A DNA stretch of 64,000 bases, taken from the NCBI GenBank assembly GCA_019038745.1, contig JAHOYV010000003.1, forward strand, positions 62,001 through 126,000, read 5' to 3'. Numbering within the stretch: position 1 is the first letter of the stretch; the number at the start of each line of letters is the position of its first letter. Below the pieces are notes generated by a model, which was not told the DNA's origin, made no database searches, and was given only the letters and a program-made list of their open reading frames with translations. The stretch is from Gemmatimonadales bacterium. Lineage in GTDB: Bacteria > Krumholzibacteriota > Krumholzibacteriia > LZORAL124-64-63. Shown here piece by piece: positions 48,526 to 52,865 of the stretch. A program made the position numbers and the translations under genes.

Positions 48526-49194
48526 TCAGATGTCCTCTTCCAAATCCATGTTCTGCAGGATGCACTTTACCTTGAAACTGAGTGACATGATGCCGACGGC
48601 CATCCGTTCATTGCGTACGGCAACCGTGGGCGGAGCCTTCAAATCCATTGGGGCAAAGTTGAAGATGCCCACGATGCCGGCCTTGACCAAACGGTCGGCC
48701 ACGAGTTGGGCCTGGGCGGCCGGGACGGTCAAGATTGCAATCTTGACTTTTTCCTTGAGGACCACCTCTTCCAGTTCATCCATGTCCCGCACAGGTTGGC
48801 CGCGAATTTCGACCCCGACCAGCTTGGGGTTTGCATCGAAGATGCCCTTGATCGGAAATCCCTGAATCTCCAGATTTTGATAATTGGCGATGGCCTGCCC
48901 CAAATGGCCGGCTCCGATGATGGCCGTGGGCACGGGTTCGGCGATCCCGATGATCTGCTCCAGGGCGCCGACCAATTTCTGCACATGATATGGGCGCCCG
49001 GGCCTACTGAAACCACCAAAGTAGTGGAAATCATGTCTCAGTTGGCTGGCCTTGATATCCAGAGACTCGGCAAGCTGGCGAGAGGACACGTCTTCTACAC
49101 CTATGGCCTGCAACAACTTAAGCTTCTCGAGGTAAAGTGGCAAACGCAACACGGTGGCATCCGGCACATCACAAGTTCTTCTGTTTTTCCTCAA
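48526..49194 (-). CDS. rex: Rex, redox-sensing transcriptional repressor
   Basis: A 222-residue Rex protein: winged-helix DNA-binding domain (about 1-80, RLPLYLEKLKLLQAIG, SSRQLAESLDIKASQLRHDF, YFGGFSRPGRPY), then a Rossmann domain with the NAD(H)-binding loop GAGHLGQAIA and a C-terminal domain-swapped helix. Rex represses fermentative and respiratory genes when NADH is low. I choose TTG 49194, placed 7 bases after GGGAGG. A longer frame from GTG 49245 has no ribosome site. Rex operators (TTGTGAA...TTCACAA) are not seen near it in this window, so its regulon is elsewhere. Confidence 0.93.
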   Translation of the reverse strand: MRKNRRTCDVPDATVLRLPLYLEKLKLLQAIGVEDVSSRQLAESLDIKASQLRHDFHYFGGFSRPGRPYHVQKLVGALEQIIGIAEPVPTAIIGAGHLGQAIANYQNLEIQGFPIKGIFDANPKLVGVEIRGQPVRDMDELEEVVLKEKVKIAILTVPAAQAQLVADRLVKAGIVGIFNFAPMDLKAPPTVAVRNERMAVGIMSLSFKVKCILQNMDLEEDI

Positions 49195-49530
49195 ATTCCC
49201 GCCTCCCGACCTACTGTTAATTCTTGAACAGGTTTGACTGGACACCCTTCCATTCTGTTATGCTATTCACATTCACCATAACTTTGGTTGGCCTTTCCGT
49301 CAACTGCTACCTTTTCAAGGTACATTTTCAAGTCCTAAAATCGGGTGGACATCAAGACCAACCAACTTCTCGCCCCTTCTACCCAAAATCGGGAATTTAC
49401 AACATTTGCTGGAGGTTTCGCCCTCTGAATCATATTTTTCCCCGTTCCGGGCCTACAGCGCCGGACCGGATTCCGAGGGCCTGCCCCGGGTGTCCGAAAA
49501 ACCTAATTTAACGGGATATTCCCGAAAACC
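49195..49530 (+). other. intergenic region upstream of gatE
   Basis: A 336-bp gap between rex (leftward) and gatE (rightward), so it should hold divergent promoters. It is A/T-rich from about 49250 to 49400. A possible -35 TTGACT (49234) has no -10 at proper spacing. A 95-codon open frame (49224-49511) has no family features and I treat it as non-coding. No tRNA or riboswitch seen. Confidence 0.45.
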
Positions 49531-51477
49531 ATGCGGTGGCTGAGTATGGACCATGCCCTCCCCCTCTCCGATCCATGGCTGTTGCGGCCCTTGCCCGCTT
49601 TCGGACAGCTTTCGGCAACCGATTACACCGATCTTGGTTTCATGGTTGGACTGGAAGTGCACCAGCAGCTACTGACCAGTCGCAAACTCTTTTGCCGATG
49701 CCCTGCCGGTAGGTACCAGACCGATCATCAGGCTGAAGTGCTGCGCCACATGAGGCCGACCCTCTCTGAAATGGGCGAATACGACGGCACGGCACTGATG
49801 GAATTCAAAACCCGCAAGAACATCATTTACCTGCTGAATAACGAGACGGTCTGCACCTACGACATGGACGATGCCCCGCCTTTCGAAATCGATGATGTAG
49901 CCCTGGATCACAGTATCGCCATCGGAATGTTGCTGGGATGCAACATCGTCGGCGAGGTGCACATTACCCGTAAACAGTACCTGGACGGAAGCATCCCCAC
50001 CGGATTCCAGCGCACGGCCATCATCGGTACCGATGGCGACATCCCGTACGGCGGAAAAAACATCCACATCCGCCAAATCAGCCTTGAAGAAGATTCCTGC
50101 CGCGAAGTCAGCGACCAGGGCCACGAACGCGTATACCGCACCGACCGGCTGGGCACACCATTAATTGAAACCGTGACCGACCCGGACATGAAAACTCCCG
50201 AAGAGGCCCGGGATGTCGGCCAAATCATCCGTCATCTGGCTCGGGCCAGCGGCCTGGTCCGCACCGGCAGCGGCGCCGGCCGGCAGGATGTGAACGTCTC
50301 GGTCACCGGCGGCACCCGCATCGAGATCAAGGGGGTATCCAGCCTGAGAGCCATCCCCCGCCTGGTGCACAACGAGGCCCTGCGCCAACGCACCCTGGTA
50401 GGCATCAGGAAAGAGCTGGCTCGCCGGGGAGTAACCTCTGCCGCCATCAGCGACGAGGGTTTCGACGTGACGGCCATCGTACGCGGCACCGATTGCAAAT
50501 TCATCGCCAAGGCCGTGGACAAGGGAGCCGCGGTGATGGCCATTCCTTTGCCTGGCTTTCAAGGATTGCTGCAATTGCAGACCCAGCCCCGCACAAGTTT
50601 TTTGAAGGAATTCAGCGACCGCATCCGAGTAATCGCCTGCATCGACGACCTGCCCAACCTGGCGCTCAGCACCCAGGAAGTTCCCACCCTCAGCAGCGGT
50701 GAATGGGATCGTGTGATCAAGGCCTGCAGCGTGGAACCCGATGTACCGGTGATTGTGGTCTGGGGCCGTCGAAACGACGTCGAAACCGCTATCAGGGAAA
50801 CGGCTATCCGGGCCCGCGAAGCCTGTGAAGGTGTTCCCATGGAAACCCGTCAGGCCCTGGATGACGGCACCAACGGCTTCGAACGCATCCTGCCGGGAGC
50901 CGATCGCATGTACCCGGACACGGATCTGCCTCCCATCCCCCTGCTGGACGAGCGGGTGGACGGAATCCGGGCTTCCCTGGGGACGCGGCCGTGGGAAAGA
51001 TATGCCAGCTTGAAGGAACTCGGTGTGAACCACGATTTGGCTGAACGTCTGAGCCGGCACCGAGCCTGGGATCTGTTTTTACTTCTTTATCCCAAACTGG
51101 ATGCAGAGACCGGCCACTTGGGGTTAAACACCTTGGCCTCCATGCTTCTGGACCGTTCCTGCCCCAGACCCGCCTCGATGGCAGCAGCCCGGGGTTGGTG
51201 GGAAAAAACCCTGGACCGCATCAACAGTGGCGAAATCATCCCCGAAGCGGTGTGGAACAGCGACGAGGAGTTACTCACCCGGCTGGAGGATGAAGAGGCC
51301 AGGTCCATTTTTGATGAGGCTCTGAATTACCTGCCGCCTGATGGTCCTGATGATCCTGATGATCCTGATGGCCAGCAAAAAAGAGAGCACTTCGCCATGC
51401 AGCACGTGATGAAGGATCTGCGCGGCAGAGTAGCTGGACGAAAGGTACGCGCTTGGATTTCGGAGGTGCTTTCGTGA
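49531..51477 (+). CDS. gatE: glutamyl-tRNA(Gln) amidotransferase subunit E (archaeal type)
   Basis: A 648-residue protein. The transamidase 'cradle' domain starts MVGLEVHQQL (38-47) and includes KLFCRCP, EEDSCREVSD, YRTDRLGTPLIETVTDPD and GAGRQDVNVSV. A GatE-specific AspRS-like GAD insertion lies at about 310-430 (EGFDVTAIVRGTDCKFIAKA; AIPLPGFQGLL). The insertion separates GatE from the shorter bacterial GatB. A helical tail (about 480-648) ends in WISEVLS. GatE converts Glu-tRNA(Gln) to Gln-tRNA(Gln) using ammonia from GatD. The N-terminus is about 35 residues longer than in archaea, and there is a Pro-Asp tandem repeat near 605. The 4-bp overlap with gatD shows coupling. Confident in family; a GatDE pair in a bacterium is unusual. 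Confidence 0.93.
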   Translation: MRWLSMDHALPLSDPWLLRPLPAFGQLSATDYTDLGFMVGLEVHQQLLTSRKLFCRCPAGRYQTDHQAEVLRHMRPTLSEMGEYDGTALMEFKTRKNIIYLLNNETVCTYDMDDAPPFEIDDVALDHSIAIGMLLGCNIVGEVHITRKQYLDGSIPTGFQRTAIIGTDGDIPYGGKNIHIRQISLEEDSCREVSDQGHERVYRTDRLGTPLIETVTDPDMKTPEEARDVGQIIRHLARASGLVRTGSGAGRQDVNVSVTGGTRIEIKGVSSLRAIPRLVHNEALRQRTLVGIRKELARRGVTSAAISDEGFDVTAIVRGTDCKFIAKAVDKGAAVMAIPLPGFQGLLQLQTQPRTSFLKEFSDRIRVIACIDDLPNLALSTQEVPTLSSGEWDRVIKACSVEPDVPVIVVWGRRNDVETAIRETAIRAREACEGVPMETRQALDDGTNGFERILPGADRMYPDTDLPPIPLLDERVDGIRASLGTRPWERYASLKELGVNHDLAERLSRHRAWDLFLLLYPKLDAETGHLGLNTLASMLLDRSCPRPASMAAARGWWEKTLDRINSGEIIPEAVWNSDEELLTRLEDEEARSIFDEALNYLPPDGPDDPDDPDGQQKREHFAMQHVMKDLRGRVAGRKVRAWISEVLS

Positions 51478-52865
51478 GTTTCAACCAGGACGACTACAAA
51501 GGCTACCGCAGCCCCACGCTGGACCTCCTGCAATCCCAAAAGGCACTCGTCTGGAGCCAGGTCACGCTGCACACCGATCGCGGTGACTTCAGTGGCCTGA
51601 TCCTGCCTCGCAGCGAAACCGCCGATGCCGACCATATCGTCCTGAAACTTTCAACCGGTTACAATATCGGGATTCGGCACAACACCGTGCAGAGAATCAC
51701 CGTCGGGGAGCGCAAGGTCGCCAACTACAAGATCCCCGAAAAGAAATTTCCTTTTGACCCGGTGAAACCAAGGGTGAAGCTCTTCGGAACCGGCGGGACT
51801 ATCGCCAGCCGGCTGGATTACCGTACCGGCGCGGTGATCCCGGCCTTCAGCCCAGGTGAGCTATACGGATCGGTGCCCGAATTGGCCGACATCTGCAACA
51901 TGGAAACCGACAAACTGTACGGCGTGTTCAGCGAGAACATGGGCCCGGAGCAGTGGATCGGCACGGCGCAAGCGGTAGCCGCCGAGATCGAAAAAGGCGT
52001 GGCCGGAATCGTGATCGGACACGGCACCGACACCATGCACCACACCGCGGCGGCCCTGAGCTTCATGCTGCAGAATTCTCCAGTCCCGATCGTGATGGTG
52101 GGTAGCCAGCGCAGTAGCGACCGACCCAGCTCGGACGCCGCCATCAACCTGATCAACTCTACCCGCACGGCAGCCACCAGCGACATCGCCGAGGTAATGG
52201 TCTGCATGTTCGGCCCCACCAGCGACAAGTACGGGCTACTGCACCGGGGAACCCGCGTGCGCAAGATGCACTCCAGCTACCGGTCCACCTTCCGCACCCT
52301 GAGCGACATCCCGTTGGGCAAGATCGACGAGTCCGGGGTCACCCCGTTCCGCAGCGACTACCATCAGCGTCGCGACGACAGGAAGATCGACCTGAAGGCG
52401 GTTTTCGACGATCGGGTCTCGCTGGTCTATTACTACCCCGCCATGAAGCCCGACATCATCGACTCCCTGGTCGACAACGGCTACAAGGGGATCGTCATAG
52501 CAGGCACCGGCCTGGGCCACGTGAACAAGCCCCTCTATCCCGCGCTGGACCGCGCCCGCGCCGCCGGCGTGCATATCTACATGACCGTGCAGACGATGTG
52601 GGGCTTCGTCCAGATGTACGTTTACGAAACCGGCCGCGAGATCATGGGGCTGGGCGTCATCCCGGCTGCCAATATGCTTCCCGAAGTGGCCTACGTGAAA
52701 CTCGGCTGGACCCTGGGTCAAACCCACGACCCCGAAGAGGTAAAACGAATCATGCTCAATCCCGTCAACGGTGAAATCACCGAACGGGAGCCTCACAACG
52801 GTTACCTCCTCTTCCAGGGCGGCATTCCCGAAGTGGACGAATTTATTTCCTCGCACTGGAAATAG
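51474..52865 (+). CDS. gatD: glutamyl-tRNA(Gln) amidotransferase subunit D (asparaginase-like)
   Basis: A 463-residue amidase subunit. The N-terminal GatD-specific beta-barrel (about 20-80, GDFSGLILPRSE, HIVLKLSTGYNIGI) is followed by an L-asparaginase-like catalytic domain: Thr109 in GTGGTIAS, Thr185-Asp186 in HGTDTMHH, and Lys264 in RVRKMHSSYR. These form the catalytic set of this family. GatD hydrolyses glutamine and channels ammonia to GatE. Stand-alone asparaginases lack the N-terminal barrel. It begins with GTG 51474 whose G-TGA overlaps the gatE stop, with GGAGGTG seven bases upstream. A terminator stem covers the stop codon. Confidence 0.94.
   Translation: MSFNQDDYKGYRSPTLDLLQSQKALVWSQVTLHTDRGDFSGLILPRSETADADHIVLKLSTGYNIGIRHNTVQRITVGERKVANYKIPEKKFPFDPVKPRVKLFGTGGTIASRLDYRTGAVIPAFSPGELYGSVPELADICNMETDKLYGVFSENMGPEQWIGTAQAVAAEIEKGVAGIVIGHGTDTMHHTAAALSFMLQNSPVPIVMVGSQRSSDRPSSDAAINLINSTRTAATSDIAEVMVCMFGPTSDKYGLLHRGTRVRKMHSSYRSTFRTLSDIPLGKIDESGVTPFRSDYHQRRDDRKIDLKAVFDDRVSLVYYYPAMKPDIIDSLVDNGYKGIVIAGTGLGHVNKPLYPALDRARAAGVHIYMTVQTMWGFVQMYVYETGREIMGLGVIPAANMLPEVAYVKLGWTLGQTHDPEEVKRIMLNPVNGEITEREPHNGYLLFQGGIPEVDEFISSHWK

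Follow-up and report, generated by a model that had tools for sequence, protein, structure and literature searches.

The window analysed here, a 64,000-nucleotide stretch of contig JAHOYV010000003.1, carries a gatE-gatD pair that almost certainly encodes a genuine GatDE tRNA amidotransferase in a bacterium. Related genes occur in at least ten bacterial phyla, and on this evidence the rule that GatDE is confined to archaea is wrong, with very many exceptions. We propose that bacterial GatDE provides a tRNA-dependent glutamine route in parallel with glutaminyl-tRNA synthetase (GlnRS), a reading to which we assign a probability of about 0.6. The window belongs to a draft genome of 3.58 Mb in 112 contigs, 91% complete with 0.39% contamination (the window genome). 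Among the best 80 of at least 586 stretches with GatE relatives, it is closest to Candidatus Krumholzibacteriia records (GatE 81% identical), and the host belongs to Candidatus Krumholzibacteriota.

Features of the locus are listed in Table 1. The rex and fabH genes lie upstream of gatE and a peptidase-like ORF lies downstream of gatD, as the initial annotation had described. It also called the pair complete and translationally coupled; both genes are intact, with products scoring above the equivalog cut-offs, and the GTGA overlap makes coupling plausible and indeed probable. A GGAGG motif at 51462-51466 is located seven bases upstream of GTG 51474, and this putative ribosome binding site together with the overlap makes that GTG a likelier gatD start than the upstream TTG. 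The G+C content of gatE and gatD (0.593 and 0.603, against 0.568 across the window) resembles that of the neighbours, a further point on which the first description stands. The rex-gatE-gatD order recurs at seven related loci and the rex-gatE pair at two more, and fabH adjoins rex in several relatives. In most bacterial loci with sufficient flanking sequence gatD directly follows gatE; at three loci it lies some kilobases away, and at two no gatD was found in the flanks. Bacterial gatDE genes appear to be under strong purifying selection, with dN of approximately 0.07-0.18, near-saturated dS, and dN/dS of approximately 0.03-0.11.

Table 1. Features of the gatE-gatD locus, in window coordinates.
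Feature	Position	Strand	Description	Remark
rex-like redox regulator	48526..49245	-	divergent neighbour of gatE	order shared with relatives
gatE	49531..51477	+	kinase/transferase (amidotransferase) subunit of GatDE	648 aa ORF
GTGA overlap	51474..51477	+	gatE stop / gatD start	read from sequence
gatD	51474..52865	+	glutaminase subunit of GatDE	ORF 51453-52865 opens at TTG 51453

The gatE product scores 472.8 bits against NF003107 (cut-off 456) and 402.5 bits against TIGR00134 (cut-off 319.55), and falls below the cut-off of every GatB model, the best of which gives 139 bits (cut-off 338). Its catalytic domain spans residues 38-475 and is followed from about residue 480 by a predicted helical, putatively YqeY-like tail. 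The GAD insertion reported in the initial annotation is present, in a diverged form: the region at approximately 325-419 aligns through with archaeal GatE (1zq1) and PF02938 is detected in 20 of 37 relatives, but the window protein itself reaches only 16.1 bits, under the cut-off of 23.4. The GatB_Yqey tail domain is matched by 23 of 37 relatives and not by the window protein, whose tail is helical in the AF2 model (mean pLDDT 84). Foldseek ranks 1zq1 and 2d6f first for this model, with 1zq1_C as the top match (TM 0.80 by target; 42% identity across 495 aa). The catalytic-domain residues sampled are present in 80-81 of 81 bacterial GatE sequences.

The gatD product is well above threshold for both TIGR02153 (507.9 bits, cut-off 324) and NF003217 (505.6 bits, cut-off 310). 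It contains both asparaginase domains and the GatD-only N-terminal domain GatD_N (PF18195; 48.2 bits, cut-off 25.7); it fails the plain asparaginase equivalog models and passes TIGR00519, which covers the type I asparaginase subfamily broadly. The catalytic tetrad T116/T192/D193/K271 (numbered from the TTG start) corresponds to T101/T177/D178/K254 of M. thermautotrophicus and is kept in 65 of 65 bacterial GatD relatives, so that the N-terminal barrel and Thr/Thr-Asp/Lys set recognised at the outset are both borne out. The closest PDB matches of GatD and GatE alike are the GatDE structures of P. abyssi (1zq1) and M. thermautotrophicus (2d6f). Across bacterial phyla GatD is conserved at approximately 72% identity, far above the 48-58% or so of GatE.

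Reviews of 2022 describe GatDE as exclusively, or now only, archaeal and call it an archaeal signature protein (PMC8762117, PMC9499178). We found no report of bacterial GatDE among open-licence papers. A scan of GTDB species genomes returned at least 586 stretches with GatE relatives, and the best 80, from which taxonomy was taken, are all bacterial and represent at least 10 phyla. These include Krumholzibacteriota, Latescibacterota, Planctomycetota, Myxococcota, KSB1, Zixibacteria, Fermentibacteria, Calditrichota and Gemmatimonadota, together with Ignavibacteriota (with Bacteroidota and Chlorobiota labels), Acidobacteriota (with Aminicenantes) and a Cloacimonetes label. The exceptions to the archaea-only rule that the initial annotation had allowed for are therefore real. 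No GatE was found in viral contigs.

We compared 30 bacterial and three archaeal GatE sequences (all three from Euryarchaeota) in a tree with GatB as the outgroup. GatE, including the window protein, is set apart from GatB with support of 100/100 and groups with archaeal GatE. Bacteria (89/93) and archaea (100/98) fall on opposite sides of one branch, and a larger quick tree agrees. With long branches and three archaeal references, early transfer and shared ancestry of GatDE may both fit this tree. The view that GatDE is old and syntenic in truly bacterial DNA is supported. A separate observation concerns the archaeal plasmid CP031304.1 of Natrinema thermotolerans: a gatE that lacks annotation lies at approximately 706536-707959, and a frameshift or sequencing error divides it between two frames.

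The gene inventory of the window genome includes direct synthetases for both amides. GlnRS scores 681 bits against TIGR00440 (cut-off 425.8), has HIGH and MSK motifs, appears intact, and is also found in nearly all genomes of the family. AsnRS (641 bits) and asparagine synthetase (501 bits) are over their cut-offs. GatDE is therefore not the only route to Gln-tRNA and is not needed for asparagine, and in this genome it would be at most a parallel route. The genome search suggested in the initial annotation thus gave a divided answer, with glnS present and GatCAB, as judged by GatA and GatB, predicted to be absent: the sole PF02934 match is GatE itself, and the best GatA-like match has 180 bits against an equivalog cut-off of 481.

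An amidotransferase is nearly always retained in these bacteria though GlnRS is usual, a pattern that gives no proof of its reason. GatB or GatE is kept in 47 of the 48 class genomes that are at least 90% complete (GatE in 43, GatB in 27, GlnRS in 42), the exception being G041, which has neither. GlnRS and GatE occur without GatB in 19 of these 48, and GatB and GatE without GlnRS in five. Across the class, Fisher tests showed no significant association of GatB with GatE or with GlnRS. PF02934 matches were found in 38/38 genomes, by score GatE in 35/38 and GatB in 19/38. Of 50 genomes with GatE, drawn from many phyla, 42 have GlnRS and 21 have GatB, and among GlnRS-less class genomes outside the family of the window genome, GatCAB is also present in 15 of the 16 that could be scored.

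The genes and domains, the residues that are kept, the shared gene order, the set of genes in the genome and the types of tRNA are what the sequences show, and from them we propose an activity, a GluRS specificity and a cellular role. GatD would release ammonia from glutamine, and GatE would phosphorylate the glutamate of Glu-tRNA-Gln and then amidate it to yield Gln-tRNA-Gln. The Glu-tRNA-Gln would come from the one GluRS of the lineage, a predicted non-discriminating enzyme that would accept tRNA-Gln(CUG) at the least, and GatDE would act in parallel with GlnRS in the window lineage. Several points count against this parallel route: GlnRS looks intact, so the GatDE pathway is not obviously needed; GatDE is almost never the sole glutamine route; tRNA-Gln carries U1-A72 where archaeal GatDE reads A1-U72; and the associations of GatB with GatE and GlnRS lack significance.

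The linkage of gltX to tRNA genes, together with the likeness of GluRS in the PDB to GluRS2 of T. maritima, suggests that the GluRS of this lineage charges tRNA-Gln(CUG). In the window genome the contig ends within gltX, and the linkage is known from relatives. In its family the order is gltX, one gene of approximately 700 codons, then tRNA-Gln(CUG) in 13 of 13 testable loci, with trnE(CUC) following wherever the sequence extends far enough. The tRNA-Gln(CUG) gene is also close behind gltX in four other families of the class and was not seen there in the loci read from two more. This conserved linkage of gltX with trnQ(CUG), often also with trnE(CUC), places the GluRS gene beside both possible tRNA substrates. 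T. maritima GluRS2, the nearest PDB match, is the enzyme used in the glutamine transamidosome structures (3akz, 3al0), and this likeness is no proof of relaxed specificity. We left the Arg358 rule for GluRS specificity out of this reading because it is reported not to transfer between phyla (PMC3927822). Several class families have two distinct GluRS paralogues, usually with GatCAB, unlike the family of the window genome with its single GluRS.

The tRNA-Gln(UUG) of the window genome resembles that of E. coli and carries U1-A72 and G73. Every tRNA-Gln of its relatives that was read whole also has U1-A72; where a printed row differs, ARAGORN had shifted the gene boundary or the CCA end was incomplete. 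In archaea, GatDE reads the A1-U72 pair of tRNA-Gln together with its D-loop (PMC9499178), so bacterial GatDE would either read tRNA-Gln differently or accept both. The tRNA-Glu(UUC) of the window genome (L145:3-77, minus strand) has G1-U72 and sits at the extreme end of a contig.

Two other arrangements would accommodate GlnRS, and we regard both as doubtful. In the first, GlnRS would charge tRNA-Gln(UUG), a relaxed GluRS and GatDE would serve the gltX-adjacent tRNA-Gln(CUG), and GatCAB would take the place of GatDE in sister lineages. Separate charging routes would fit the contrast between the isoacceptors of the family, C3-G70 and A73 in tRNA-Gln(CUG) against G3-C70 in tRNA-Gln(UUG). If this arrangement were true, GatDE would be an ancient enzyme, bacterial as well as archaeal, with bacterial tRNA recognition. 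In the second, bacterial GatDE would have been repurposed for another acyl-tRNA, such as Asp-tRNA-Asn, or for a non-translational substrate. Such a change would explain coexistence with GlnRS in 42 of 50 genomes, and is consistent with the bacterial tRNA identity elements and with the diverged C-terminal third of GatE, where alignment to archaeal GatE ends after residue 516-526. It is opposed by the unchanged state of every catalytic residue tested, by the position of tRNA-Gln rather than tRNA-Asn beside gltX, and by AsnRS and asparagine synthetase, which make an asparagine role unnecessary; the sole AspRS-like protein of the window genome is of the long bacterial type. An Asn-forming role was accordingly rejected.

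The initial annotation had raised the possibility of an archaeal mode of Gln-tRNA synthesis in this bacterium. Taken to mean that GatDE replaces both GlnRS and GatCAB, this is very unlikely. The lack of GatB and equivalog GatA would suit it, as would genome G061 (95% complete), the sole one of the 48 with GatE alone. G061 has gatE-gatD and gltX-trnQ(CUG)-trnE(CUC) in a row, gave no match to GlnRS or GatB, and is the best candidate for a GatDE-dependent bacterium. In the window genome, the strong GlnRS match, its presence in nearly the whole family, the E. coli-like tRNA-Gln(UUG), AsnRS and asparagine synthetase all stand against it. Finally, there is next to no chance that the pair is a non-functional relic, archaeal contamination or a misassembly: the genome is a draft and most related records are metagenome assemblies, but the rex-gatE-gatD order is repeated in independent assemblies, the closest relatives, at 81% and 89% identity, come from bacteria, selection is strongly purifying, contamination is low, and relatives occur in complete bacterial chromosomes (e.g. 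CP054675.1, CP070631.1, CP070718.1 and CP070707.1). Misassembly, which the first reading had flagged for checking, was rejected on this synteny, and contamination was excluded on synteny, bacterial relatives, neighbour-like composition and the 0.39% estimate.

The parallel route beside GlnRS is the reading that we carry forward as the likeliest. An archaeal-only distribution of GatDE has been used in arguments on LUCA and on why archaea never gained GlnRS, and its presence in at least ten bacterial phyla, mostly beside GlnRS, removes their premise. Surveys of bacterial Gln-tRNA routes that count only GluRS, GlnRS and GatCAB (PMC3927822) overlook a component. Bacterial GatDE would also represent natural enzymes that meet a U1-A72 tRNA-Gln.

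Compared with known systems, the window proteins are most like archaeal GatDE (1zq1, 2d6f), with which they share both subunits, the domain order, the GatD N-terminal domain, the tetrad and the GatE catalytic residues, at 36-42% identity for GatE and 46-50% for GatD and with a GatE fold match of TM 0.76-0.80 by target. The bacterial case differs in its GlnRS-containing host, U1-A72 tRNA-Gln and bacterial-type GluRS, and the genes differ in their separate GatE branch, diverged tail and tight gatE-gatD operon. The archaeal Gln-tRNA pathway has no GlnRS and an A1-U72 tRNA-Gln, and the window genome departs from it in both respects. Bacterial GatCAB catalyses the same reaction, and GatB and GatE share the PF02934 catalytic cradle; the window GatE is far below GatB cut-offs, and its amidase partner is an asparaginase-type GatD rather than GatA. 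Deinococcus, Thermus and Bdellovibrio keep GatCAB beside GlnRS and AsnRS (PMC4206432) and so resemble the window genome in retaining an amidotransferase alongside both direct synthetases. In those bacteria GatCAB is tied to asparagine with a relaxed AspRS, whereas the window genome combines GatDE with an asparagine synthetase.
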